Source: Rhodovulum steppense
GTDB taxonomy: Bacteria > Pseudomonadota > Alphaproteobacteria > Rhodobacterales > Rhodobacteraceae
Direction of reading: 5' to 3'
Assembly (NCBI RefSeq): GCF_004339675.1
Contig: NZ_SLVM01000008.1
Location: 1-64,000, forward strand
Length of the DNA stretch: 64,000 nt
The position numbers and the translations under genes are program-made. The notes below the pieces were generated by a model that saw only the letters and a program-made list of their open reading frames with translations, ran no database searches and was not told the origin of the DNA. How positions within the stretch are numbered: position 1 is the stretch's first letter; each line of letters starts with the position of its first letter. Below, piece by piece: positions 14,848 to 26,614 of the stretch.

Positions 14848-14931
14848 GGGCGACGCGCTGCAAGGTGCGGCAGCGGACTGTAAATCCGCCGGGGAGACCC
14901 ATGCCTGGTTCGATTCCAGGGTCGCCCACCA
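14848..14931 (+). tRNA. tRNA-Tyr (GUA), integration site of the satellite
   Basis: The 7-bp acceptor stem GGGCGAC/GTCGCCC, discriminator A and encoded CCA (14929-14931) are intact. The anticodon stem GCGGA/TCCGC holds loop CTGTAAA, so the anticodon is GTA. A 14-base variable arm and T arm CCTGG-TTCGATT-CCAGG complete a class II tRNA. Position 8 reads G and position 14 reads C, in place of the near-universal U8 and A14. The 3' end doubles as the left attachment site of the neighbouring element and stays functional after insertion. Confidence 0.9.
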
Positions 14932-14933
14932 TT
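14917..14933 (+). repeat. attL: 17-bp direct repeat at tRNA-Tyr 3' end
   Basis: CAGGGTCGCCCACCATT spans part of the T arm, the 3' acceptor strand and the CCA. An identical copy lies at 26598-26614. Identity stops on both sides, as expected for the crossover core of a tyrosine integrase. Confidence 0.92.
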
Positions 14934-15010
14934 TCCATTTTTAATTGAGATAAATCAACGCCCTGCGGGGCGGTTTTGTCAACCTACGGGTTAGGTTTGA
15001 CAGGTAGTGT

Positions 15011-16078
15011 TCACTGTTCTTTCCGTCCCAATGCCGCAACAGCACGTTCGGCAAGATGGATTCTGTTGGCCGCGACAGTGTATCGAGTCACTTCGGCAAG
15101 CGTTTGGTGGCCGCTGATGGACATGATTTCATGCGCGCTGCATCCCGCCTCGGCCAACCTCCGGCACGTTGCCTTGCGCAAGCCGTGCGGCGACAGACCA
15201 TCGGGAAGCAATCGGTTGCCGTCCTTGTCCACAACTGCCTTCACCATCTTGTTAAACCAGTTGGTGAACCCCTCGGGAGTCAGCGGCTTGCCGCGATCCG
15301 ACAGAATGAAAGTCAGGTTGTCCTTCGGCAAACTGTCCAGAGATGCCCGAAGTTCCGGGTGCAACGGGATGCTCACTTCCTGACCTGTTTTCTGTTGAAC
15401 GATGGTTAGGACTCCAGCTTTCACATGCTGTCGGCCCATGCGCACCACGTCGCCGCGTCGCTGCCCCGTGTGGAGCAGGAGCGACAAGGCCAAATGCGCG
15501 CGGGTGCCGGGCTTATGGTGGTCGAGGAAGGCTGCGATGTGGTCTTCCTGCCAGGTTTCGAAGCCTTCCGACCTGTGCCGCATTTTCTTAATGCCCAAGG
15601 TCGGATCGTCGCGGCGCCAGCCCAGATCGACGGCATGAACCATGAGGCTTCGAAGCAACCTAAGCAGTCGGTTCGCTGCATCAGGCGTGCTCACCTTCTC
15701 AGCCAAGATCCTTTGGACGTGCCGCTTTTCCATGTGTGCTACCCGCTTTTCGCCATGTTCGGCGCGAAAGCGTTCAAGGATGTTCCTGACTGCGCGTTTC
15801 GTGGATTCAGCAAGGCCAATGAACTCGGCGCTGCGATAGTAGCTGGCAACAAGTGCGGCTACGCTACCCGGCGCGACCTTTGCTTTTCCGACTTCTGCTT
15901 TATCCGATTCCATTGCATCGGAATAAGCTGCCATGAACTGCGGAGACCACGGCAGGCCCGGCAGCGGGCGGCGTTGGAAGCCAGGGCGTCGAAAGTACCA
16001 GCGCATTTTGCCGTGTCGATCTTCGAAGCCTTGGCAATACTTGGGTGGTTTTCGGAGTTGCTTCATGCTCAGTCCCAA
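15011..16078 (-). CDS. int: tyrosine-type site-specific integrase
   Basis: A 355-residue tyrosine recombinase. Residues about 70-150 form the core-binding SAM-like domain; the catalytic domain follows. The active-site set is complete: Arg207 in HTGQRRGDV, Lys230 in QQKTGQ, His298 and Arg301 in SPHGLRK, His324 in SGHQTLAE and nucleophile Tyr333 in VTRYT. It should recombine the tRNA-Tyr 3' end. The start at 16078 overlaps the upstream AlpA-like gene by 10 bases; Met 5 (16066) is an alternative. About 80 bases separate its stop from attL, the usual place for an integrase. Confidence 0.96.
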   Translation of the reverse strand: MGLSMKQLRKPPKYCQGFEDRHGKMRWYFRRPGFQRRPLPGLPWSPQFMAAYSDAMESDKAEVGKAKVAPGSVAALVASYYRSAEFIGLAESTKRAVRNILERFRAEHGEKRVAHMEKRHVQRILAEKVSTPDAANRLLRLLRSLMVHAVDLGWRRDDPTLGIKKMRHRSEGFETWQEDHIAAFLDHHKPGTRAHLALSLLLHTGQRRGDVVRMGRQHVKAGVLTIVQQKTGQEVSIPLHPELRASLDSLPKDNLTFILSDRGKPLTPEGFTNWFNKMVKAVVDKDGNRLLPDGLSPHGLRKATCRRLAEAGCSAHEIMSISGHQTLAEVTRYTVAANRIHLAERAVAALGRKEQ

Positions 16079-16317
16079 TCATTGGTTTCGGGTTCTGTAG
16101 CGTCGCCCGAAAGTGCTTCAAACGCCAAGTCCAAAGCGCGCACATCCCAGATATTCCGGCTGCATATGCGCTTGGGGCCAGGCATCTCGCCTGCGGCAAT
16201 CAGCTTGTCGAAGGTGGAAGGGCTGACTCCGATGTAGCCCGCCGCCTCGGCTCGCGATAATCCGCGCCGGAACGGCGGTTGTATCACTTGCGAAGGCTGG
16301 CGGGCTTGGCTTTGCAT
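16069..16317 (-). CDS. AlpA/excisionase-like DNA-binding protein
   Basis: An 82-residue protein whose centre (about residues 19-50, LSRAEAAGYIGVSPSTFDKL then GEMPGPKRI) is a winged helix-turn-helix of the AlpA/Xis (MerR-like) type. The C-terminus is acidic. Such proteins act as recombination directionality factors or as satellite transcription activators. It is translated into the integrase gene (10-base overlap), so the two are coupled. I chose ATG 16317 because upstream residues in the frame are arginine-rich nonsense opposite the neighbouring gene. Confidence 0.82.
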   Translation of the reverse strand: MQSQARQPSQVIQPPFRRGLSRAEAAGYIGVSPSTFDKLIAAGEMPGPKRICSRNIWDVRALDLAFEALSGDATEPETNDWD

Positions 16318-16321
16318 CGGT

Positions 16322-16654
16322 TCAGAACGCCGACAGGCGAACGGCAACACTGCCGGTCGTCGCGGCAGCAGCTTCGACGGCAACGCCAAGTTTGACGTTC
16401 GTGCCTTCGTCGTCGTCGATCGTGACCAGGGATTCGCCGGCGTCATAGTAGACGGCAGCGCCCAAAGTGATGTTGTCGGCTGCGACTTTGGGAAGCCGGA
16501 ACACTCCGGTAGTCACAACGTCAACCTTGGCGCCGATCGCGGCGGAACCGGCAGCGATGCCCCGGATCTCGCCAGCGATGACAACGCCTCCAGAGACCAC
16601 GGCAGCGGGTGCAGGGATCGTCAGGTTCGATCCGGCTTGTTCAAAGTTCTTCAT
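16322..16654 (-). CDS. capsid decoration protein (DUF2190-like)
   Basis: A 110-residue beta-rich protein, Ala/Gly/Val-rich, with TIPAPAAVVSGGVVIAGEIRGIA near the start and LPKVAADNITLGAAVYYDAG in the middle. These are hallmarks of DUF2190 proteins, which sit beside capsid genes and are thought to decorate or stabilise heads, like lambda gpD. A good ribosome site (AAAGGA) precedes ATG 16654. It lies just downstream of the head-joining gene. Confidence 0.78.
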   Translation of the reverse strand: MKNFEQAGSNLTIPAPAAVVSGGVVIAGEIRGIAAGSAAIGAKVDVVTTGVFRLPKVAADNITLGAAVYYDAGESLVTIDDDEGTNVKLGVAVEAAAATTGSVAVRLSAF

Positions 16655-16656
16655 GT

Positions 16657-16872
16657 TCAGAGTCCTTTCGATGTTTGGGGAAGGATGCGAGAGGCAGGGC
16701 GCCTGTGCATCGACTCAATCTCGGCATCGATCGCAGCGAGCGCCCGTGCCATTTCCGAGTCCGACTTGTAGAAGACAGACTCGCCGTTGCTGTCCCGGAC
16801 TTCGCGGAGCCCGCCGTAGCGGGACTCCTGAAGCCGGGTGCGCCATTCGGTCAGTTGCGCAAGCGTCGCCAT
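16657..16872 (-). CDS. gpW-like head-tail joining protein
   Basis: A 71-residue protein of the phage head-tail joining (gpW-like) type. The pattern LAQLTEWRTRLQESRYGGLREVRDSNGESVFYKS..MARALAAIDAEI is the usual one: helix, short beta hairpin, helix. gpW plugs filled lambda heads and makes the site for tail attachment. The ATG at 16872 overlaps the capsid stop by one base (TGATG); a GTG one codon earlier is possible. In this element it is the natural hand-over point to a helper tail. Confidence 0.8.
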   Translation of the reverse strand: MATLAQLTEWRTRLQESRYGGLREVRDSNGESVFYKSDSEMARALAAIDAEIESMHRRPASRILPQTSKGL

Positions 16873-18620
16873 CACGCGGCCGAATAGTAGGCGCCGCGCC
16901 AGTCGAGCCAGCCGCAGCCAAAGTCGAGGAAGGCCCGGAACGACATTCCGAGGGTTTCCCAGGATTCCATGCGCTGGATTTGGACGCCCGGCGCGGCCGC
17001 AAGATAGGCGTATTGGAGCGACGCCAGCCGCGCCGGATCCGCCATCAGGAACCAGCCTGCGCCGGTCAAGCGGGGCTCGATGACCAGTTCCAACTTCCCT
17101 GCAAACGGGTTCGCGTCGTCAGTTTTCGGGGCGTAGATCGCGGACAGAAAACGTTCAGCGTCGGTTTCCATCGCCGGCGAAACGATCAGGTACTTCGGCG
17201 CGGCATCGATGATGGTTTTGCCGTCGAGTCCCTTCACTGTGCGCATGTGGGCGCGCGCCGACGCGACTTCGTCGAAGAGTCCCGCTTGATTGAAATCGAC
17301 CGTGCCCAGGTTGCCCCGGCTGGCGTCGAAGACCGGCGTTCCGTCGCTCAGGTCCGGGTTTGCCGTCAGCAGCGAAACCAGTTCGTCCGCTTCAGTCTGC
17401 GCTGCGGCCTGCCCCATCGCGGCGGTCATGTCGCCCAGAAGGTTCAGGTCATCATCGATCATCAGCTTTCGGCTGACGTTGATCTTGCGGCCGAAGGTGC
17501 GAAGGTGAAGCGTCTCGCCGTTCTCGGCACGGGACGTGGCCTTGAACTCGCCTTGCTCCGTCATCTCTTCGAGTCGACCCATCTCGCCAAGGCGGATCGA
17601 CGTCGACTCCTTGAAGTTCGGCAGGGTGCGTTGCCGCGCCAGCGCCTTCAGCGGGCTTTCGGCTGCCCGGTAGGCTTCAGCCGCGACCTTGCCCATGGCG
17701 TTGCTCACAACCAGGGGGAAGTCGGACGTGCCATGCGCTGCGCGCTGAAACAGTTCGTCGGTCGAAAGTCCGCGGACGGACACGCCCGAACGGGCCAGGG
17801 CATCGGCAGCCATTTCCTTCAGGCTCAGGCCCACGAAATCACGGCTCGCTTCGGGCAGCTCGCCACCGGCCATGCGGAATGCAAGTGCATCGGCCTGCCG
17901 CGTGCGCAGGGCTGCTGGATCGTCGGAAGAATGCCCAACGCGGATCTGCGGAAGGCTGCGGCGCCGGGTCAGGGCTTCGTCGCGGCCCGACTGCCGGATT
18001 TCGTCGTCGGTCAGTTCGTCGGCGGCTTCGGTCATGCGGGTTGCCCAATCTTCGGGAAGGGCATGGGCACTGCGGATGCGCTGAATCAGCTCGGCGCGGT
18101 CGTTTTCATTGTCTAGGGGCATGGGGGTTCCACTCCTGAAAGTTGCGCCGGGGTCGGCAGCGATTGCGACGGCGCTGGCTTCGTGAATCTGCCAGGCGAC
18201 GGCGGTTCGAACCCGCTGGCCTTGCCCATCTCGGGACTCCTGCCAACGGGTCACGCGGTATCCGACTGACACGCCGCGAAGGGTGCCCTCAGAAATTCGT
18301 TCGATGATCGGCGCTGCATCGGCGGCGCCGGAAAGGCGGAAGGTTGCGACAAGCTGTCCGCTCTCCATCCGGTGAGTTTCCAAAACGCCGATAACGTCGC
18401 GGGCACTGCCCTGCCGGTGCCCGTCCAGTAGCGGAACGCCTGTCAGGTTCGACAGGTCGAGGCCGGCGGGGTCGAGACGTTCGACATAGGCGCCGCGCGC
18501 ATCGCGCCGGGTCACGTCCGCGAAGGTGGAAATGGTCGCTTCAACCGTGCGGGCGTCAGCGTCGAAGCTGCCGATCGACAAAGACGCTGACCGATGCAGG
18601 GCAATATCATGTCCGGTCAT
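16872..18620 (-). CDS. fused prohead protease and HK97-fold major capsid protein
   Basis: A 582-residue fusion. Residues about 1-165 are a U35-type prohead protease, with the catalytic pattern PLLDGH (His68), SEGTLRGVSVGYRV (Ser118) and IHEASAVAIAADPGA. A charged, scaffold-like linker (about 170-270) follows. Residues about 285-582 look like an HK97-fold major capsid protein (for example EMTEQGEFK, TFGRKINVSRKLMIDDDLN, KYLIVSPAMETDAE and the ending GWLDWRGAYYSAA). Protease and shell would be made as one chain and presumably self-cleave. I chose ATG 18620; 18641 is an alternative. It overlaps the small ORF upstream by 14 bases. Confidence 0.9.
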   Translation of the reverse strand: MTGHDIALHRSASLSIGSFDADARTVEATISTFADVTRRDARGAYVERLDPAGLDLSNLTGVPLLDGHRQGSARDVIGVLETHRMESGQLVATFRLSGAADAAPIIERISEGTLRGVSVGYRVTRWQESRDGQGQRVRTAVAWQIHEASAVAIAADPGATFRSGTPMPLDNENDRAELIQRIRSAHALPEDWATRMTEAADELTDDEIRQSGRDEALTRRRSLPQIRVGHSSDDPAALRTRQADALAFRMAGGELPEASRDFVGLSLKEMAADALARSGVSVRGLSTDELFQRAAHGTSDFPLVVSNAMGKVAAEAYRAAESPLKALARQRTLPNFKESTSIRLGEMGRLEEMTEQGEFKATSRAENGETLHLRTFGRKINVSRKLMIDDDLNLLGDMTAAMGQAAAQTEADELVSLLTANPDLSDGTPVFDASRGNLGTVDFNQAGLFDEVASARAHMRTVKGLDGKTIIDAAPKYLIVSPAMETDAERFLSAIYAPKTDDANPFAGKLELVIEPRLTGAGWFLMADPARLASLQYAYLAAAPGVQIQRMESWETLGMSFRAFLDFGCGWLDWRGAYYSAA

Positions 18621-18765
18621 CGATCGACTCCTTTTGAGCATCGGCCATGGGTCGCCCATCGCGGTCGAGGTATTGCCCGGTTCGCGGCACGAATATCCGG
18701 GTTGCCCGCTCAACGTTCACAGTGAAGCGGCGCCGCAGTTCGGTCGGTTCAATCTTCGCTCGCAT
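18607..18765 (-). CDS. small head-gene-cluster ORF
   Basis: A 52-residue basic protein, beginning MRAKIEPTELRRRFTVNVER, with a TRIFVPRTGQYLDRDGRPM centre. It overlaps the portal end by 17 bases and the protease-capsid start by 14, so it fits exactly between two head genes. Lambdoid clusters often have a tiny gene here, but I see no recognisable domain. Longer reading from 18798 is possible. Confidence 0.55.
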   Translation of the reverse strand: MRAKIEPTELRRRFTVNVERATRIFVPRTGQYLDRDGRPMADAQKESIDDRT

Positions 18766-20095
18766 TGGGCGTCCTTTCGGCTGCGATTTCGTCTTCAAGG
18801 TCGTCGGGAACCCATCCGCGTTCCGCTATTGCCTTGCGGCGACTTGTCAAACCCGCTTCGATTTCAGCGACAGTCGCGTTGATGTCTTTCAGCGGATCGA
18901 CTTGCAGCGGTTTCGGCGGCAGCCAATCCGCGCGCAAATAGTGGCCGGGATTCTGTTCGAAATCCGGCGCATCGATTTGGTCCGTCAGGATTCCGTGCCG
19001 AATGACTGCCCGCCAGGTCGGCGCCAGGAGTTGCGGCACAAGAATCTGATACTGGATCTGTTCGACGCGCTGCCGAAACGGAAGCAGACCAGCGCGCAAT
19101 GAACTGTAATTCGCTCCTGTCAGATCGCCGGAAAGCAGATGATCGGGCAGCCCAAGACCGGCGGCAAGCTGGCGCAGGTTCAACTTCAGAAACGAGTCGA
19201 TCTGTTGCGCCTGTTGCGGGCTGGCGAATTTAATATCCCATCCGCCCCCTAAGCGTTGCAGGGTGCCAGGTTCGAGTGACGGCACGTCTTCGCCTTCAAA
19301 CGGGTCTTCCCCACCAACAGCGTTTTGATTTGTGACGAATGCGCAGAACATGGCGGCGGTCTTCGCCCCGACTAGGAGCGCATCGCAAAGTTGATCGAAA
19401 TCGGATGCCGGCAACACGACTGGCGCCAGCCAAGACACGCCGCGGAGTTGTCCCGGCGCGATCGGCCGGAAGACGTGCAAGACGTTTGCGGCGTCGATAC
19501 GCTGCGCCGGGGCATAGTTCGCGAAGACCGAAGCCGGGCGTTCGGGGATGATCCAGAAGGCATCGCGACGCCCGTTCGCGTCAACTTCCACGCCTGCGAA
19601 GATCGCGCGACCCTCGGGCAACTCGGCAGTTCTGCTTTCGTCCAGAAGTTCGGGCGGCAGGGCGCGCAGGCGTGGCCCTTCGTCAGTGTCGATCAGCAGC
19701 GCCAGACCTTCGCCCGCAGTGACCATCGATTGCGCAATCTGCGCCTGAATGCCCCAAAAGTCGGCCCGCCCTTCGGCGTCCGCCTCAGTCGCCCACGCTT
19801 CAAAATACGCATTCAGCGCGCGACGCGTTGCCTTGTCAGGGTGCCGCGAAGTCGGTTGGATGCCGGCGCCGACAAGCGCCCCGGTCCAGTTCGCCACGCC
19901 TTGGGAAAGCCAAGGGTTGTTGTTCGCCAGATAGGCCGCGCGGCTGCGGAGCGATGCACCGGCAGCGGCGACTTCCGGGTTGATCTTGCCAAAACTGCCC
20001 ATGCCCGATGCGCGCCGGCCCCCGGCCGCACCGTCGAAGCGGCGAATGGCTGGCGGTTCAGCTTTGCGGGTGAAGAGGCGCGAAAGAAGGCCCAT
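18749..20095 (-). CDS. phage portal protein (lambda gpB family)
   Basis: A 448-residue portal, the dodecameric ring through which DNA enters and leaves the head. Family features are the N-terminal ASLRSRAAYLANNNPWLSQGVANWTGALVGAGIQP, the central VTAGEGLALL and the SFLKLNLRQLAAGLGLPDHLLSGDLTGANYSS block. It is shorter than lambda gpB, mainly at the C-terminus, and still ends in a charged tail. Its ATG shares a base with the stop of the upstream regulator-like gene. Confidence 0.92.
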   Translation of the reverse strand: MGLLSRLFTRKAEPPAIRRFDGAAGGRRASGMGSFGKINPEVAAAGASLRSRAAYLANNNPWLSQGVANWTGALVGAGIQPTSRHPDKATRRALNAYFEAWATEADAEGRADFWGIQAQIAQSMVTAGEGLALLIDTDEGPRLRALPPELLDESRTAELPEGRAIFAGVEVDANGRRDAFWIIPERPASVFANYAPAQRIDAANVLHVFRPIAPGQLRGVSWLAPVVLPASDFDQLCDALLVGAKTAAMFCAFVTNQNAVGGEDPFEGEDVPSLEPGTLQRLGGGWDIKFASPQQAQQIDSFLKLNLRQLAAGLGLPDHLLSGDLTGANYSSLRAGLLPFRQRVEQIQYQILVPQLLAPTWRAVIRHGILTDQIDAPDFEQNPGHYLRADWLPPKPLQVDPLKDINATVAEIEAGLTSRRKAIAERGWVPDDLEDEIAAERTPNASED

Positions 20096-20631
20096 CAGAC
20101 TTCAGACTCGTGCAAGGCGGCATGAAGCGGCAGCGCGATAGAAGTGAACCGGATATACAGTGCACCTTCGATCGTTCCTGAAACACTTACAGTGTCAGGC
20201 GCCAGCGGATCAGCAGCGCCGCGGCGCATCCGCACTTCATCCCGCAGCCAGTTGCCGTAAACGCCAGCGCTTTCTTGCTCGGGAACGCGAATCCAACTAA
20301 TTTCAATCAGCCACAGCGAAGGTTGCGCGGCTGACAGGTCAGTAATCGCCCGTTCCATCAGGGCTTTGTCGTCCAGATCAGAACCCAGCTTTGCCAAGTT
20401 CTCGGATGACAGCCCCATATCGATCGCTGCCATCAGGACGCGCGCCCGGAACAGTTCTGACGCCGTGAACAGAAGCGCCCCCTTCGGCCCGTAGCGGTCA
20501 GGCAACGGGCGCATGAGCCCGCGCGCAGCAAGACCCTTTAACTGATTGAATACCTTTTCGGTATTCGGCCGTTTCTCGGTTTCACTGATAACCGTTGTGA
20601 AGTCGCGCAGTGTGTAAATCCGGGTTTGCAT
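20095..20631 (-). CDS. putative MerR-like regulator leading the head operon
   Basis: A 178-residue protein of unknown family. Residues about 12-75 (KVFNQLKGLAARGLMRPLPDRYGPKGALLFTASELFRARVLMAA) suggest a MerR-type winged helix-turn-helix; the rest is a mixed C-terminal domain. ATG 20631 has a strong GGAGG ribosome site and lies 24 bases from a candidate -10. As first gene of the minus-strand operon (portal, capsid, joiner, decoration, AlpA, integrase) it is well placed to control it. The regulator role is inference. Confidence 0.6.
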   Translation of the reverse strand: MQTRIYTLRDFTTVISETEKRPNTEKVFNQLKGLAARGLMRPLPDRYGPKGALLFTASELFRARVLMAAIDMGLSSENLAKLGSDLDDKALMERAITDLSAAQPSLWLIEISWIRVPEQESAGVYGNWLRDEVRMRRGAADPLAPDTVSVSGTIEGALYIRFTSIALPLHAALHESEV

Positions 20632-20655
20632 GGCGGAACCTCCGTTGTTCCGGCC

Positions 20656-20685
20656 AGCATACCGATACGCAAAATGATGAGTCAA
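20656..20685 (-). promoter_or_regulatory. promoter of the satellite head operon
   Basis: On the minus strand TTGACT (complement of 20680-20685) and TATGCT (complement of 20656-20661) are separated by 18 bases, upstream of the GGAGG site and ATG at 20631. It is the best sigma-70-like promoter in the element. Confidence 0.5.
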
Positions 20686-20839
20686 CATCAAAGATTCTGC
20701 TGGATTTACTAATTCCGAATGTGCTAGAAGGGTGTTGCTGCATCATGGGAGTGATGTTGCCATGTCTGCCAACGCGGGCGGCGGGGCTTAAGACTCGTCA
20801 TCCTCGGCCCTGCCGCCCGCACCCTCACGGAGTTGACCC

Positions 20840-21007
20840 ATGCCAAATGCCAAACGACGCGCGGTCCGGAACTACGCAAAGGCGTTGAACGCTTCCGGGG
20901 TGCCCTTCGAGTTCGCGGCAGCATGTGTCGCAAAATGGCTGCAAACACGCGGGCTTCCGATCACGGGTGAGAATCTGGACATTGCATTCTGCGCCTTCTA
21001 CGATTGA
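20840..21007 (+). CDS. 55-residue plus-strand ORF in the satellite control region
   Basis: The frame starts MPNAKRRAVRNYAKALNASG and ends ENLDIAFCAFYD. It is basic at the N-terminus, helical in prediction (FEFAAACVAKWLQTRG), and opposite in strand to almost all other element genes. A CGGAG sequence lies about 9 bases before the ATG. The composition looks like a real small protein, perhaps a DNA-binding or anti-repressor-like factor, but no family is recognised. Confidence 0.5.
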   Translation: MPNAKRRAVRNYAKALNASGVPFEFAAACVAKWLQTRGLPITGENLDIAFCAFYD

Positions 21008-21008
21008 T

Positions 21009-21032
21009 TCACTTATTAAGTGACGATCACTT
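21009..21032. promoter_or_regulatory. operator-like array of three alternating half-sites
   Basis: TCACTT (21009-21014), AAGTGA (21018-21023) and TCACTT (21027-21032) alternate in orientation at a 9-base period with 3-base spacers ATT and CGA. Each neighbouring pair makes a 15-bp palindrome. The site lies between the two plus-strand small genes and 65 bases before the second. This is what a cooperative dimeric regulator site would look like. Confidence 0.55.
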
Positions 21033-21096
21033 TAGACGTCCGTAGGAATGTTGGGCGAATCTGCTAAGCTGGACTTCTCAGAAGAAGGAGTCGCAG

Positions 21097-21360
21097 ATGT
21101 TTGCACCGATCATATCAATTCCGATAAACGAAATCGAACCGGAGTCCGTTGTATGGCGTGGCCCGTGGTTCGGAGATGCGCTTGAAGCGTCGGCCGGACA
21201 AGCCGCCGTCCTTCAAGGCGACGCAGGGATGATGCCGGGTTACTTTGCCGGCAACGGCTTTATCTCACGCGCCGACTTAGCCTGTGCCTCACTTTCGGAG
21301 GCAAGCGTGCGAGCAAAGGAGCTCGCTCAAGCGATGTGCTGTTCTAAAAAGGCATCGTAA
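21097..21360 (+). CDS. 87-residue plus-strand ORF in the satellite
   Basis: A hypothetical protein starting MFAPIISIPINEIEPESVVW, with a mixed middle and a helical, alanine-rich end (SLSEASVRAKELAQAM). A strong ribosome site (AGAAGGAG, about 21082-21089) precedes the ATG, supporting translation. The upstream half-site array suggests regulated expression. No domain is recognised; its place fits a satellite accessory or control gene. Confidence 0.55.
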   Translation: MFAPIISIPINEIEPESVVWRGPWFGDALEASAGQAAVLQGDAGMMPGYFAGNGFISRADLACASLSEASVRAKELAQAMCCSKKAS

Positions 21361-21380
21361 TCGGATGTGTCGCAAATTAC

Positions 21381-21590
21381 CTAGTAACCAAGATATTTCG
21401 CTACTCCATCTACAGCTTCGCAGAATACCTTCGCATCTTCATGCGAAAGGCAAATGCTCTGTCCGTTTAGGTTCAAGTAGAGTTGTGGGCCGTTGCCCAT
21501 GGCTCCCGAAGTACCGAGTTCCAAATCTACCTCTTTTCCCGAAAAGTTATCTACAACCTTCCGATTTCCGAAATGCATAATTGTACCCAT
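21381..21590 (-). CDS. small hypothetical protein after the large terminase
   Basis: A 69-residue protein beginning MGTIMHFGNRKVVDNFSGKE and ending AVDGVAKYLGY. It reads as a small alpha/beta fold. The start lies five bases after the terminase stop, suggesting one transcript. The codon choice is less GC-biased than in neighbouring host genes. It converges with the plus-strand ORF ending at 21360. Function unknown. Confidence 0.5.
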   Translation of the reverse strand: MGTIMHFGNRKVVDNFSGKEVDLELGTSGAMGNGPQLYLNLNGQSICLSHEDAKVFCEAVDGVAKYLGY

Positions 21591-21594
21591 TTTC

Positions 21595-23352
21595 TTATCT
21601 CCCCATCCAATGTGATCGACTAACTCTAGACTTTGCTTTTGGTGCCGCAGGACTCGCCAGTTCTGCTGCCCGTGCCTCAACCTTCTGCCCGATCAAATGC
21701 CGCGCTGCCCAAGAGTAAACCGTCGCATCCAGTGACTCCGCCCGTTTCCCTTTGATCCGCTCAAACCGAGCTTGCGGCGTTCCTCGCGTATATCGCACCA
21801 CGCGACGTTCACTTGTCAACTGTTCAAAGTATACACTTTCCAACGCATCGCCAAACCGGACACCTTGCCCGCGCGAAAGGCGGTTGAACAACTGCGATTT
21901 TATCGCATCGACGCCAGCGAGCCAAAGCGGGCTGCCCTTCGACCCAGATCGCTGAAGGAACGGGCGGCTGAAGCCCTGAACGCCCTTGATACTGACCACA
22001 CGGCGCCCGAACCGCGGTGCCGTGAAGCCGTGCACAATCTCAGTGTGCCCGCCGTCGCCACTATCGACGCAGGCGGCATCAATGCCGATCGTGCCGCCCT
22101 TCGGGTGCTTCCAACGTTCCCGCAACAGGTAGTCCAGGTCCGCCCAGATCGCTTCGCCGTCGATCGGCCCCCAGAACACTTCATGCGACAGAATAAACAG
22201 GTCAGACTCGCCGTGCCCCATAATGACAGCCTCAAGCCGATCGTCTTGGCAATCGACTCCTACTGTCAGGAACAAGACTTCCGGCGGCAATGCCTCCAGG
22301 TTGAAAGTCTCCCGCTGTTCGAACAGGGCGCGTTCGTCCAGATCCTCACCTTCGGTCTTCCACGGTTCGCCTAGAACCAGGTTCGTGAACGTTTGAAGTG
22401 TATCGGGGCTACGCTTCGCCTTCAGGAACTCGGCCACCAGCTTGCCCCATCGGGCATTGAAATGCGGGCTGACAAGGGCGTTGATCCTGAAGCCCGCATG
22501 TCCCTTCACGTCCGGCGCCGTTGCTCGCCAACGCCCTGCCGCGACCATCGCAGGCTTGTGCCGCTCTTCCACGATGCAGCCGTTCGACGGACAAACCCAA
22601 TGCGCCGAGTCCGGGTCGCCTTCGGTCCATCGCAAATCAGCCCACCGGACTTCCGCAAAATCGCCGCAACTCGGGCAGCACACTTCAAAAACCCGCTTGT
22701 CGGATTGATCGTAAAGCCGCGTCGCAGGCCCGAAATCGAAGACGGGAGTCGATCCTGCAATGATTTTCCGATCGCGAAAAGTCAGTGTGCGCATGGTCGC
22801 CAGTTCGATCGGGTCGCCTTCCTGGCTGACTTCGAATCCGTCTATTTCGTCCATTATCAGCAGCTTGGAAGTGTGCCGTCGCAAATTTCGGGGCGACTTG
22901 GCCGCGACGAATTTTAGGCTTCCCCCTGCGAACCTGCGGTTGAGCATGGTCGAGCGGCCGGACTCGTCGGCTTCGTCGGACAGCAGGCCGCGAAGTTCCG
23001 GCGAAGCTTCGAAGATGCCTTCCAGATCGACGGCATAATCTCGGGCATCGTCACTGGTCGGCAGAACTGACAGGATCGGGCAAGGCGTGTTCGCCACATG
23101 CGCCGCGATGATACCCGACAGGAGCGCGGTATAGCCGATGCGCGCTGACTTCAGGACTGTGACACGCTCAATTTCAGGATCGTCGATCGCATCGCAGATG
23201 CCGCGCTGATAGGCCCAGAGTTGCATTTTTCCGGGCAATGCCGATGCAGTCTGTGGAAGGTAGATGTTTGACTCGATCCAGTCGGCCAGCGGAATGGCTG
23301 GCGGCGGGCGTAGGGCTTGCAGCGCGTTGCTTGCGGTCAGTTCAATTCCCAT
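21595..23352 (-). CDS. terminase large subunit (GpA family)
   Basis: A 585-residue packaging motor and nuclease of the lambda gpA type. The N-terminal adaptor is followed by the deviant Walker A of this family, KSARIGYT (68-75), and Walker B-like LLIMDEIDGF. A zinc-ribbon-like pair (CCPSCGDF and WVCPSNGC) follows. The nuclease part begins at TVGVDCQDDRLEAVIMGHG. I chose ATG 23352, which overlaps the small terminase stop by 11 bases; the longer frame would overlap it further. It belongs to the right-hand minus-strand operon starting with the primase. Confidence 0.93.
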   Translation of the reverse strand: MGIELTASNALQALRPPPAIPLADWIESNIYLPQTASALPGKMQLWAYQRGICDAIDDPEIERVTVLKSARIGYTALLSGIIAAHVANTPCPILSVLPTSDDARDYAVDLEGIFEASPELRGLLSDEADESGRSTMLNRRFAGGSLKFVAAKSPRNLRRHTSKLLIMDEIDGFEVSQEGDPIELATMRTLTFRDRKIIAGSTPVFDFGPATRLYDQSDKRVFEVCCPSCGDFAEVRWADLRWTEGDPDSAHWVCPSNGCIVEERHKPAMVAAGRWRATAPDVKGHAGFRINALVSPHFNARWGKLVAEFLKAKRSPDTLQTFTNLVLGEPWKTEGEDLDERALFEQRETFNLEALPPEVLFLTVGVDCQDDRLEAVIMGHGESDLFILSHEVFWGPIDGEAIWADLDYLLRERWKHPKGGTIGIDAACVDSGDGGHTEIVHGFTAPRFGRRVVSIKGVQGFSRPFLQRSGSKGSPLWLAGVDAIKSQLFNRLSRGQGVRFGDALESVYFEQLTSERRVVRYTRGTPQARFERIKGKRAESLDATVYSWAARHLIGQKVEARAAELASPAAPKAKSRVSRSHWMGR

Positions 23353-23974
23353 CCGACAACCTTTCAAGTGAGCGCCGGATCTCTCGGTCGATCTCGGCAA
23401 GGTCATGCGCGGTCAGGTGCGGCAGCTTGGCGCCAACTCTGGACGGCACCGCCAGAAGCCCGGCCCGAACATCGCGCAGGATCGATGCCCACTGCCGTTC
23501 GACGGCGGTTGCCTCCAGCAGTTCGCCGCGCGATGCAGCGTTCTTCAGTTCTTGCGCGTCGGCCTGCGCCCGCTTCACTCGGATCGATTCCGCTTTCAGA
23601 TCGCGATTGGCTTCCTCTTGCCCCTGTCTGCCGCCGCGCGACGCGGCATCGCGCAACTGCGCCAGGTAACGTGCAAGGCTGGCCCGAACATCGTACCGGC
23701 CGCGCCCCGATCGGATCAGGATTCCGTCGCGTGCCTTCGTGCGGATCTGACTTGCTCCAATTCCCAGAAGCGCCGCCATGCCCGACTCGTCGGTAATCGC
23801 AGGAATGGGCTCAGGAGGCCCTTCAGGCGCGGCGGGTCCACCGGCAGCGGATTGCCCCGAGTCATCGTTCCTTGAAGTTCCCATTAAGCGGGGCGGCACA
23901 TGGCGGCTGCCGGGTTCCGGTTCATCCCCTAGCAGTTCGCCCAAGTCGTCAATGAAGGTCACAGGTCCTGACAT
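23342..23974 (-). CDS. terminase small subunit (Nu1-like)
   Basis: A 210-residue protein. After an acidic, Pro/Gly-rich head (1-60), residues about 62-110 resemble a winged helix-turn-helix (MAALLGIGASQIRTKARDGI then GRYDVRASLARYLAQL), as in lambda Nu1. A charged coiled-coil segment follows (EEANRDLKAESIRVKRAQADAQELKNA), with a helical C-terminus. It should bind the satellite packaging site and recruit the large subunit. Its place directly upstream of a GpA-type gene supports the call. Confidence 0.82.
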   Translation of the reverse strand: MSGPVTFIDDLGELLGDEPEPGSRHVPPRLMGTSRNDDSGQSAAGGPAAPEGPPEPIPAITDESGMAALLGIGASQIRTKARDGILIRSGRGRYDVRASLARYLAQLRDAASRGGRQGQEEANRDLKAESIRVKRAQADAQELKNAASRGELLEATAVERQWASILRDVRAGLLAVPSRVGAKLPHLTAHDLAEIDREIRRSLERLSDGN

Positions 23975-24171
23975 ATCGGACTCCCAAGATTGAAAATTTC
24001 TGAAGAGCGGTTTTTTTCGCGGTCGGAGTCCCCCGCGTGGCCGCCCCCGAGGCAAGGACCCGCTGCCGATGCGACTGAATGCAGGATCGAACCAGTTGCA
24101 TGATCGATTTCAGCCAACGTTCGCGGTTCATGCGACGCGGCATCCGTGGTGCAGATCGGCAGGGGGATCAT
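23959..24171 (-). CDS. possible tiny gene between primase and terminase
   Basis: A 70-residue frame begins at an ATG overlapping the primase stop by 4 bases (ATGA) and ends 16 bases inside the small terminase start. That tight fit suggests a real coupled gene. The sequence (MIPLPICTTDAASHEPRTLA...) shows no known domain. A competing minus-strand frame (23949-24143) covers much of the same DNA, so neither is certain. Confidence 0.35.
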   Translation of the reverse strand: MIPLPICTTDAASHEPRTLAEIDHATGSILHSVASAAGPCLGGGHAGDSDREKNRSSEIFNLGSPICQDL

Positions 24172-26471
24172 GAAACCATCCCCTCTATCTCAACCGAACT
24201 CAGGGCATCGACGCGACGCGACAACGCGACAGCCCTAAAGGGCTGCTGTCGCGTCGGTCGCGCTGGCGCATCGGTTTGCCGGGTGGCGACAATCGCGACT
24301 TGTCGCGCTTCTGTCGCGTCGTGTCGCGCTGTCGCGTCAGCGACAAACTCTGTGTCCAAGTCGTCGAAGTCGTCGGGGATGCAGTAGAACCCATCTTTAA
24401 ACTTGATGCGTCCCTTTTCCAGAAGCCCCCGGATCGCCCTAGTTGCAACGTCGCGACGCGACTTTGCGTTGTCGGACGCCGACACGTCGCGCCCGCTCGC
24501 CATGACGTCCTTGTAATCTGCTTCAGGCAATCTGCCGCCCTCACGCTCTAGAACGTCCAGCGCCGCTTGTTCCGACCTTGGCAGTTTCTCGAATGCGTAG
24601 CTTGCAGCGGCCGAACATGGCGCGGCGTAGGGCAACCGGATTTCGTCGCCGTCTTCATCTGTCCCGCCGGCAATCGTGCCAATGGTAAACGCGATATCCC
24701 TGTCGCATGGCCCGTTGCGGTTTTTGGTCAGCCGGCCCCGCACCACGCCTGACTCGTCGCGCTTGATATGCAGCGCCACGTCAAGAGCGCCATTCAGCAA
24801 GCTATGGCCCCGCGGCAGTCCCTGTTGCCCGTCTTTTGTATCGTGGTGTATCAAAAGCACGGCAGCGCCCCATCTGGTCAACTTTCGCGCGACGCTGACA
24901 ACCCGGCCCATTCCTTCCGCGCTGTTCTCTTCGAGTCCGGGAAACGCCATTGCCAGCGTGTCGAGGAAGATCAATGCGGGGCGTTGCGCCTTCACAGCTT
25001 CCAGAAGCGCGACCAAATCGGGCGACTCCTTCGCCAGAAGATCGGACACGCCTGCGACAAGCTGGAACTCGGGTGCATCGCCATAGATGGATTTCAGCGC
25101 CTTCACCCTGCCGCGCATCCCGTGCGGATCCTCGGCCGCGACATAGAACACGCCGCCCGCCCTCGCGCGCATTCCGAAGACCTCCCGGCCCTGTGCAACG
25201 GCATATCCAAGGAAGGGCGAGAGCAGCGACTTGCCGGCGCCCGGTGCCCCCACAATGCACCCCACGTCGCCCGGTGCCAGGAAGCCCTTCAGGACATAGC
25301 CGCGCGACGGGGCAGCTTCGCATTCGGAAGGGCTCAGGAATGACAGGCGCGACTTGGCGCGCGGAAGTTCCGGCAGGTCTTCGAAGTCGGAGTCACTGAT
25401 TTCCATCTCGGGCCAGGACCAGCCGTGCGCCTTCGCCTCGGCAACAAGGCTCGCCAGCGTGATCGCAGCGCGGCCGTTCGGCGGCGTCACCTTGCGGCGT
25501 TGCCATTCCTTGGCAACTTCCTTCGCGTCATAGTCGGGACCGATCTTCCTTGCCCATGAGTGCAGGATTTCGAGTCCTTCAGCATCGCCGCTGAACTGGT
25601 GCTTTAGCGCCAGCGTGACGGTTTCCTTCCGGTGCCAGCGGTCAGCATCATTCGGGTTCGGCAGGTGTTCAATCAGATCGCGGACCTGTGCGGCTGTCAG
25701 CGACAGCGGCCGTTGTTCCGTGGCAATCGGCGCGGGCGTGTCTGGCCCTAGCAGCTCGGCAAGGTCATCGATCGGCGCCGCCCGTTTGCCGATGCGCGGC
25801 AGGTCGGTTGCATGGTCGATCGTTCGCCCATCGATCATGTGGATCTCGGGCGGCGCGTTGCCCCTGACACGTCCGAAGAAGTAGCAGCGCGACGGGTCAA
25901 AAGACTCCTTGCCGGCAATGCCCCCAAGGGCGCCGTTGACACGTTCCACCAGGACCGCGGACGCTGCCGGGCTCACGGGGGCAGCGGTTGGCAGTAGAAC
26001 ACGCCACCGGGGCTTGTCGGGTGTATGGCTTGAAGAGGTGAAAACGACAGCGGCGAGTCCTGCCGCCCGCAACCTTGCCGCGGCTTCGTTCGGAGTCACC
26101 TCGCCCGCGTCATAGTCGATTTCGACTCCGTGGCGTGCGGTCAGGTGTTCGGCCTTCCTGCCGCCTTTGAACGTGCCCAGCTTCACCAAAGGCAGCTCGG
26201 CCTTCTCATCGGCAAAGACGCTGCCGGCCCGTTCGACAAACTGGCGCAGTGTCAGCGTTTCGTTTTGGGGCGTCGTGTCGGTCTTGCTGCAGAAGAAAGT
26301 GAGTGACAACGGCAGGTCTAGCGACGAGTCCGGGCTTGTGCTATGTTCCGTGGTGTCAATATTTCCATCGATCTTTGCGCCGTTCCGGGGTCCAGCCGGG
26401 GCGGCGTTTTCCTTTTCAGCCCTTGGCGGTCCCAGAAGATCCGCAAGGTCGAGTTGGTTCATGTAGGTCAT
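24168..26471 (-). CDS. primase-helicase replication protein
   Basis: A 767-residue multidomain protein. Residues about 70-225 resemble an archaeo-eukaryotic primase-like domain: VEIDYDAGE (Asp119, Asp121) and SSSHTPDKPRWRVLLP. Residues about 255-355 look like a PriCT-type segment (WHRKETVTLALKHQF...LEILHSWARKIG). A RepA-like RecA-fold ATPase follows, with Walker A GAPGAGKS at 408-415, Walker B LIFLDTLAM and sensor LLIHHDTKDG. The C-terminus has a helix-turn-helix-like part. It should start satellite replication. ATG 26471 has a GAGG site about 7 bases upstream. It leads the right-hand operon. Confidence 0.88.
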   Translation of the reverse strand: MTYMNQLDLADLLGPPRAEKENAAPAGPRNGAKIDGNIDTTEHSTSPDSSLDLPLSLTFFCSKTDTTPQNETLTLRQFVERAGSVFADEKAELPLVKLGTFKGGRKAEHLTARHGVEIDYDAGEVTPNEAAARLRAAGLAAVVFTSSSHTPDKPRWRVLLPTAAPVSPAASAVLVERVNGALGGIAGKESFDPSRCYFFGRVRGNAPPEIHMIDGRTIDHATDLPRIGKRAAPIDDLAELLGPDTPAPIATEQRPLSLTAAQVRDLIEHLPNPNDADRWHRKETVTLALKHQFSGDAEGLEILHSWARKIGPDYDAKEVAKEWQRRKVTPPNGRAAITLASLVAEAKAHGWSWPEMEISDSDFEDLPELPRAKSRLSFLSPSECEAAPSRGYVLKGFLAPGDVGCIVGAPGAGKSLLSPFLGYAVAQGREVFGMRARAGGVFYVAAEDPHGMRGRVKALKSIYGDAPEFQLVAGVSDLLAKESPDLVALLEAVKAQRPALIFLDTLAMAFPGLEENSAEGMGRVVSVARKLTRWGAAVLLIHHDTKDGQQGLPRGHSLLNGALDVALHIKRDESGVVRGRLTKNRNGPCDRDIAFTIGTIAGGTDEDGDEIRLPYAAPCSAAASYAFEKLPRSEQAALDVLEREGGRLPEADYKDVMASGRDVSASDNAKSRRDVATRAIRGLLEKGRIKFKDGFYCIPDDFDDLDTEFVADATARHDATEARQVAIVATRQTDAPARPTRQQPFRAVALSRRVDALSSVEIEGMVS

Positions 26472-26517
26472 CGCGGTTCCTCGCTCTGAGGCCCCGCAGA
26501 GGGTTTGACAATCTCTG

Positions 26518-26535
26518 GAAATTTACTTGAATTTC
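26518..26535. promoter_or_regulatory. inverted repeat upstream of the primase gene
   Basis: GAAATT and AATTTC are separated by 6 bases in the 126-base AT-richer gap between the primase start and attR. It may be an operator or part of a replication origin. The gap also holds two TTTGACA copies (26504-26510 and 26556-26562). Confidence 0.35.
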
Positions 26536-26597
26536 AGCAAGCCGACTCTGGGTCGTTTGACACTCTAAGCACTTGTATTCGCTTAACTGTGTCATAT

Positions 26598-26614
26598 CAG
26601 GGTCGCCCACCATT
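26598..26614 (+). repeat. attR: second copy of the 17-bp att core
   Basis: CAGGGTCGCCCACCATT, identical to 14917-14933. It is not followed by, or part of, a second tRNA: only the tRNA 3' end is duplicated. It marks the right end of the element. Confidence 0.92.

Follow-up and report, generated by a model that had tools for sequence, protein, structure and literature searches.

An 11.7-kb element (14917-26614) integrated at a tRNA-Tyr gene of Rhodovulum steppense is very probably an intact-looking, capsid-forming phage satellite, belonging to a lineage of Alphaproteobacteria whose capsid falls outside the Pfam family described for the capsid-forming satellites known as cf-PICIs. We consider it most likely to be a satellite that borrows tails, because it has a head and a packaging motor of its own and no recognisable tail, and because its relatives sit at many tRNA genes. 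The element lies in a stretch of 64,000 nucleotides, hereafter the window (assembly GCF_004339675.1, contig NZ_SLVM01000008.1, positions 1 to 64,000), and its core genes are all on the minus strand (Table 1).

The element begins inside the 3' end of the tRNA-Tyr gene (14848-14931, ARAGORN) and is delimited by a 17-bp perfect direct repeat, CAGGGTCGCCCACCATT, which starts at 14917 and 26598 and is nested in a longer 29-bp repeat of 86% identity. The empty form of the site was found in related genomes: of 15 congeners compared, 10 keep the order SpoU, tRNA-Tyr, downstream gene, with 1.3-3.4 kb between tRNA-Tyr and the downstream gene in those 10 compared with 12,953 bp in the window. The corresponding distance in the nearest congener, which is 96% identical there, is 1,499 bp. 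No tRNA-Tyr was found within the stretch fetched for the remaining five congeners. As a chromosomal island with its own integrase and att sites, the element meets that criterion for a cf-PICI. IMG/VR already contains a provirus contig (L032, 11,461 bp) that matches the element, with proteins 99-100% identical. A 65-aa ORF on the minus strand (26416-26613) overlaps attR, and some relatives show matches to it at about this position; it may be a real gene or a mere trace of the att region.

Table 1. Features of the element, with positions in the window.
Feature	Position	Strand	Basis or remark
attL, 3' end of tRNA-Tyr	14917..14933	+	17-bp perfect repeat; empty site in 10/15 congeners
Tyrosine integrase	15011..16078	-	PF00589 3.3e-19; phrog_1 1.9e-40 (stretch searched 15011-16075)
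AlpA/excisionase-like HTH protein	16069..16446	-	phrog_25900 5e-10; phrog_66 6e-6
Cement/head decoration protein (DUF2190)	16322..16654	-	PF09956 2e-21; phrog_122 6.4e-26
gpW-type head-tail adaptor Ad1	16657..16875	-	phrog_2545 2e-10; no Pfam match
Head protease fused to major capsid protein	16872..18713	-	PF25209 6.5e-42; PF04586 2.9e-5; phrog_4523 3.8e-148
Portal, lambda family	18749..20095	-	PF05136 4.8e-80
X, CvkR-like MerR-type regulator, directly before portal	20095..20691	-	predicted fold
Variable low-GC site between terL and X	20692..21594		GC 0.527 vs 0.618 for core
Small ORF at terL-X site	20840-21007	+	
Small ORF at terL-X site	21097-21360	+	
Small ORF at terL-X site	21381-21680	-	overlaps end of terL
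Terminase large subunit, GpA family	21595..23406	-	PF05876 8.7e-73; PF20454 3.8e-74
Terminase small subunit, Nu1-like	23342..24055	-	PF07471 3.3e-8; phrog_57 1.7e-26
Primase-helicase	24168..26471	-	PriCT-2 + AAA_25
attR	26598..26614	+	17-bp perfect repeat

The genes are arranged, in the order of transcription, as primase-helicase, TerS (Nu1-like), TerL (GpA), an AT-richer stretch with small ORFs, X (198 aa), portal, protease-capsid fusion, gpW, DUF2190 cement, AlpA-like protein and integrase, and the core ORFs are all open. The fusion joins an S78 protease to a capsid of the Phage_capsid_4/gpT-like type, which matched PF25209 and gave no match to PF05065 at E 0.1. The AlpA-like protein is weak in Pfam (HTH_17 0.017), and its true start probably lies inside the ORF listed. 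The ORFs searched against Pfam and PHROGs yielded no match to a tail or lysis family, and no HNH endonuclease was detected among the window proteins searched. Neither a CI-type gene nor a head closure or stopper protein was recognised in the element, the gpW adaptor being present. The sequence-only reading had described an element with perfect att repeats, an integrase, an AlpA-like protein, a primase-helicase and a head and packaging set, and without recognisable tail, lysis or CI-type genes. The repeat, the tRNA-Tyr and the empty site bear out the first point, and Pfam and PHROGs identify the genes named; the absences hold for the ORFs searched, with the addition of X, a protein of MerR type by predicted fold.

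X itself had no family match in Pfam or PHROGs. The best solved match of its AlphaFold2 model (pLDDT 88) was CvkR (7xn2; Foldseek 9.7e-5), with a Z score of 10.9 and an rmsd of 4.5 over 138 of 148 residues, the next entry reaching a Z score of 6.0. According to the model, a wHTH is followed by a CvkR-type C-terminal part, so that the criterion for the CvkR subfamily is met. Judged by its predicted fold, X is a MerR-type (CvkR-like) regulator. CvkR is described, in the accessible part of its report, as a MerR-type protein that represses type V-K CAST systems (PMC9938897). X is not part of a type V-K CRISPR-associated transposon but is situated between terL and portal of the element. In 48 of 53 loci, a count made without a chance control, an ORF of 140-300 aa on the same strand ended no more than 150 nt from portal. 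The 49 X-like proteins that were aligned proved very divergent in sequence and appear to diverge fast; Pfam MerR_1 was detected in six of them, not including X of the window. Control of the portal-capsid operon by X is inferred from its position.

Of the 390 genomes of the order that were searched, 96 contained matches to the capsid, some belonging to satellites and others to prophages. Viral contigs contributed 19 loci when scanned, and genome contigs yielded 217 relatives, the best 80 of which were analysed; these were mostly from Rhodobacterales, with others from Rhizobiales, Sphingomonadales, Caulobacterales and Acetobacteraceae. Thioclava atlantica and Rhodobacter viridis are examples of cultured species that carry a relative. 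Sufficient sequence on both sides was available for 55 of these 80 loci. Of the 55, 43 are delimited by an exact repeat (14 bp or longer) that overlaps a tRNA and two by a repeat without a tRNA; no bounding repeat was found in the other 10. Shuffled left flanks reached a 14-bp repeat in only 3 of 1100 cases. The repeat-bounded relatives are 9,703-13,234 bp long, and the relatives occupy 19 tRNA labels by anticodon, with one locus bearing two. Profiles based on the window detected TerS in 49, TerL in 50, portal in 54, gpW in 54 and cement in 52 of the 55 loci, as well as integrase in 35, primase in 40 and the AlpA-like protein in 20; some integrases that escaped the profile are divergent, with their genes on the opposite strand (L156). 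The tail-less block is kept over about 38-68% capsid identity, in many cases with an integrase and att repeats. Exceptions to the gene order are L166 and L167, with terS/terL on the opposite strand, and L176, with terS/terL behind cement.

Closely similar parts of the element occur in different genera, with blocks 90-96% identical. Blocks of 90-94% identity are shared by Salipiger and an uncultured Sulfitobacter; blocks of this identity are also common to Mameliella and Roseivivax, yet the elements of these two are located at tRNA-Ser and tRNA-Phe. Scaffold55 of Falsigemmobacter faecalis (L118/L042), which is 12,094 bp long, has identical 45-bp ends and a RepL-like gene, with no integrase match by profile; it is probably a form of the satellite lineage that exists as a circular plasmid. 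The window's genome (G000) also contains pieces of a second, diverged relative on contigs C37 (2077-7477) and C51 (1780-3766), the latter with a tRNA-Met at 97-173 and a capsid match interrupted by one in-frame stop. This second relative is apparently broken.

Tail proteins of four phages, together with the holin and endolysin of RcBaka, served as probes against 131 loci, a set in which several elements are counted twice because they came from two collections. The probes matched six of eight loci labelled as prophages and had no match in the other 125 of the 131, which include the remaining two prophage-labelled loci (L105 and L106, so labelled although without any tail-probe match); no satellite locus was matched. 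One of eight further diverged loci (G141) adjoins tail fragments. In G141 (L200, L201), fragments of an RcBaka-type tail tube and chaperone lie next to a truncated satellite-type portal, and recombination between a prophage and a satellite is possible. The 301 non-core ORFs of 54 loci formed 221 clusters; 96 of these clusters and 173 of the ORFs are represented by the 100 accessory proteins that were scanned, the remainder being mostly single ORFs. The 17 Pfam families found in these 100 proteins, a complete table, comprise neither a tail or lysis family nor HNH; for PHROGs, 25 of 41 families were among the matches listed.

The same picture could arise from a small autonomous virus with tail genes that have diverged beyond recognition, and some genes of the window, namely X and those at the terL-portal site, are indeed without a family match. 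The space without an assigned function amounts to only about 1.5 kb, however, and this includes X, for which a MerR-type fold is predicted; the rest is made up of small ORFs, located where relatives have swapped sequence, and no tail or lysis Pfam family was found among the 100 accessory proteins. On these grounds we rejected a hidden tail, which we regard as highly improbable.

The capsid tree sets the satellite heads apart from those of phages. In a quick search with 64 rows, 50 satellite-labelled capsids fell on one side of a branch and 14 phage or prophage capsids on the other (SH-aLRT 95). The satellite rows comprise 36 with a tRNA repeat, three with a repeat but no recognised tRNA, and 11 without a repeat (L069, L089, L104, L144, L158, L162, L168, L172, L176, L178 and L185), some of which are on short contigs. 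The gpW gene follows the capsid in 53 of 55 satellite loci, as in the window, and lies between terL and portal in none of the 55, whereas it lies between terL and portal in the four annotated phages. The linker between protease and capsid measures 119-164 aa in the 50 satellites and 174-253 aa in the 14 phages, without overlap and without correction for relatedness, whereas the median domain lengths differ little (108 and 114 aa for the protease, 298 and 301 aa for the capsid). Both the gpW position and the linker length agree with the capsid tree on a separate lineage. The shorter linker is a candidate cause of small capsids, the smaller head being itself inferred.

Phages with a related protease-capsid fusion do exist, such as Rhodobacter phage RcBaka, and the tail fragments adjoining G141 might likewise suggest that the element is a decayed prophage in which the head module was left after loss of the tail and lysis genes. 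We see very little room for such decay and rejected a prophage remnant, given that the core ORFs of the window are all open, that the tail-less order recurs at many different tRNA genes with the same boundaries at independent sites, that the gpW order is unlike that of the phages, and that the satellites form one branch of the capsid tree. The sequence-only reading of a capsid-forming satellite gained support from the recurring tail-less block, with helper dependence inferred from the absence of tail genes. It had proposed a search of relatives for the same gene order at tRNA-Tyr, and the block was found again, at many different tRNA genes; the finding that it would have taken as a refutation, that the same head genes always belong to full-length prophages, did not materialise, with relatives down to about 40% capsid identity being tail-less. 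Prophages of the wider head family revealed tails with the same probes (six of the eight labelled loci) and have another gene order.

The gap between terL and portal is a low-GC swap site that contains restriction-modification genes in some relatives. In its terL half, this gap was AT-richer than the core in all 47 loci measured, with a median GC of 0.498 vs 0.635. Among seven related pairs, five whose elements are otherwise 82-96% identical lost alignment in the gap, at least two of these also losing it elsewhere; of the other two pairs, one aligns through the gap and one has a contig that starts inside it. Larger genes can occupy the gap in a diverged subclade, where the cargo consists of a type I methyltransferase with a specificity subunit in L206 (6453-11295), of type II/III methyltransferases and an HNH restriction enzyme in L069 (6999-10662), and of genes without any family match in L198 (6362-9381). 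Within the cargo set, HNH proteins occur in single members. These assignments rest on the matches listed, which comprise 25 of 237 families for PADLOC and 25 of 28 for Pfam. Members of the diverged subclade have a tRNA-Met no more than 4.3 kb behind the capsid start in six of eight loci. A BNR/sortilin-type repeat protein (1205-2509) is encoded in L206 just past the tRNA-Met that follows gpW and is probably a host gene.

Candidates for a tail donor were sought in the same genomes. Tail tube genes of the RcBaka type are present in 96 of 390 genomes, and they accompany full-length members of the diverged subclade in 15 of 22 genomes (p 1e-5), or in 19 of 27 if partial members are included. The window's subclade did not show such co-occurrence with RcBaka-type tails (2 of 17 genomes, p 0.26; background 94 of 373), the only tail type for which it was looked for, and the window's own genome has no RcBaka-type tail tube. 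The test was not corrected for relatedness of the genomes, subclades were assigned from identities, mostly three candidates per genome were scored, and G000 entered the counts of group A and of 'B all' alike. The window's genome has a siphophage-type prophage near tRNA-Phe on contig C10 (L254/L255), with genes for tape measure, tail tip, portal, head and terminase, and a tail cluster on contig C4 that we take, by homology, to be of the gene transfer agent (GTA) type. Both remain candidates for the helper or tail donor. The C4 cluster raises the idea that the donor is the resident GTA and not a phage, and a GTA-like tail-tip protein is encoded by the RcBaka-type phages, the group whose tails are found together with the diverged subclade. 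We nevertheless find a GTA donor hardly credible, since the host also has an ordinary helper candidate in the C10 prophage and there is no direct evidence for such a role of the GTA.

As far as the available portions of the published accounts allow, the element resembles a cf-PICI in its way of working yet seems to represent a separate lineage. The cf-PICIs encode capsid, protease, portal, connectors, terminases and HNH and need only tails (PMC10690885); their capsids form three radiations (PMC11389934), and 900 published cf-PICI capsids were analysed as PF05065 (PMC13230959). The element resembles them in being chromosomal, in having an integrase, a replication gene and its own terS/terL, portal, protease and capsid, and in lacking a tail (PMC10690885, PMC13230959). 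Whereas the cf-PICI capsid is PF05065 (PMC13230959), that of the element is PF25209/gpT-like with the protease fused to it; the element also differs in its GpA terminase, lambda-family portal and DUF2190, in that no HNH was found and no head closure protein recognised, in the CvkR-like regulator before portal, and in its alphaproteobacterial hosts. The lambda-type set and the fused protease-capsid had been named as differences in the sequence-only reading, and the literature bears this out to the extent that it permits a comparison. Because the criteria of capsid family and HNH fail, we do not call the element a member of the cf-PICIs, although it works alike. New are the gpW gene behind the capsid, the shorter protease-capsid linker, the CvkR-like X before portal and the low-GC swap site.

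Other known systems are more distant. The Vibrio cf-PISP satellite-plasmids, again judged from part of their description (PMC13230959), are comparable with the plasmid-like Falsigemmobacter faecalis Scaffold55; they have a different capsid family, and the window element is integrated instead. The Streptomyces satellites Mulch and Flayer likewise have their own head and packaging genes but, in the sections accessible (PMC10690885), are actinobacterial, with direct terminal repeats, no obvious replicase and virulent helpers. RcBaka and related phages and prophages share the protease-capsid fusion, the terminase and the gpW-like protein; unlike the element, they have complete sets of tail and lysis genes, a gpW gene located between terL and portal, a longer linker and a place on the opposite side of the capsid tree. 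No capsid-forming satellite with such a head set in Alphaproteobacteria was among the matches listed for the open PMC subset, and the term 'satellite' was not found in a study of alphaproteobacterial phages (PMC10783043). Elements of this type may be hidden in the original cf-PICI data.

If the element is a satellite of this kind, its integrase would excise it, with the AlpA-like protein likely acting as excisionase or activator, and the primase-helicase would replicate it. Its portal and protease-capsid fusion would form heads together with gpW and DUF2190, its lambda-type terminase would package its DNA, and a helper phage would supply the stopper, tail and lysis. Excision, replication, small capsids, the role of X in controlling the head operon and the identity of the tail donor are all inferred; helper dependence and mobilisation are inferred from the absent tail genes, and there are no induction, particle or helper data. 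A more far-reaching proposal, which we put forward as improbable speculation, is that of an old lineage independent of cf-PICIs in which the short linker sets a small head, the CvkR-like X senses the helper, and the tails come from GTA-type tail modules that RcBaka-type phages and the resident GTA have in common.

A search keyed to PF05065 would miss the capsid of the window. The linker length, which separates the 50 satellites from the 14 phages compared, offers a hypothesis for capsid size, and the lineage places CvkR-like regulators in a new context and has a fixed cargo site, occupied in some relatives by restriction-modification genes. If the satellite interpretation is true, the strategy of 'own head, stolen tail' exists on a second, non-matching head module, and such satellites are common in a major bacterial class.
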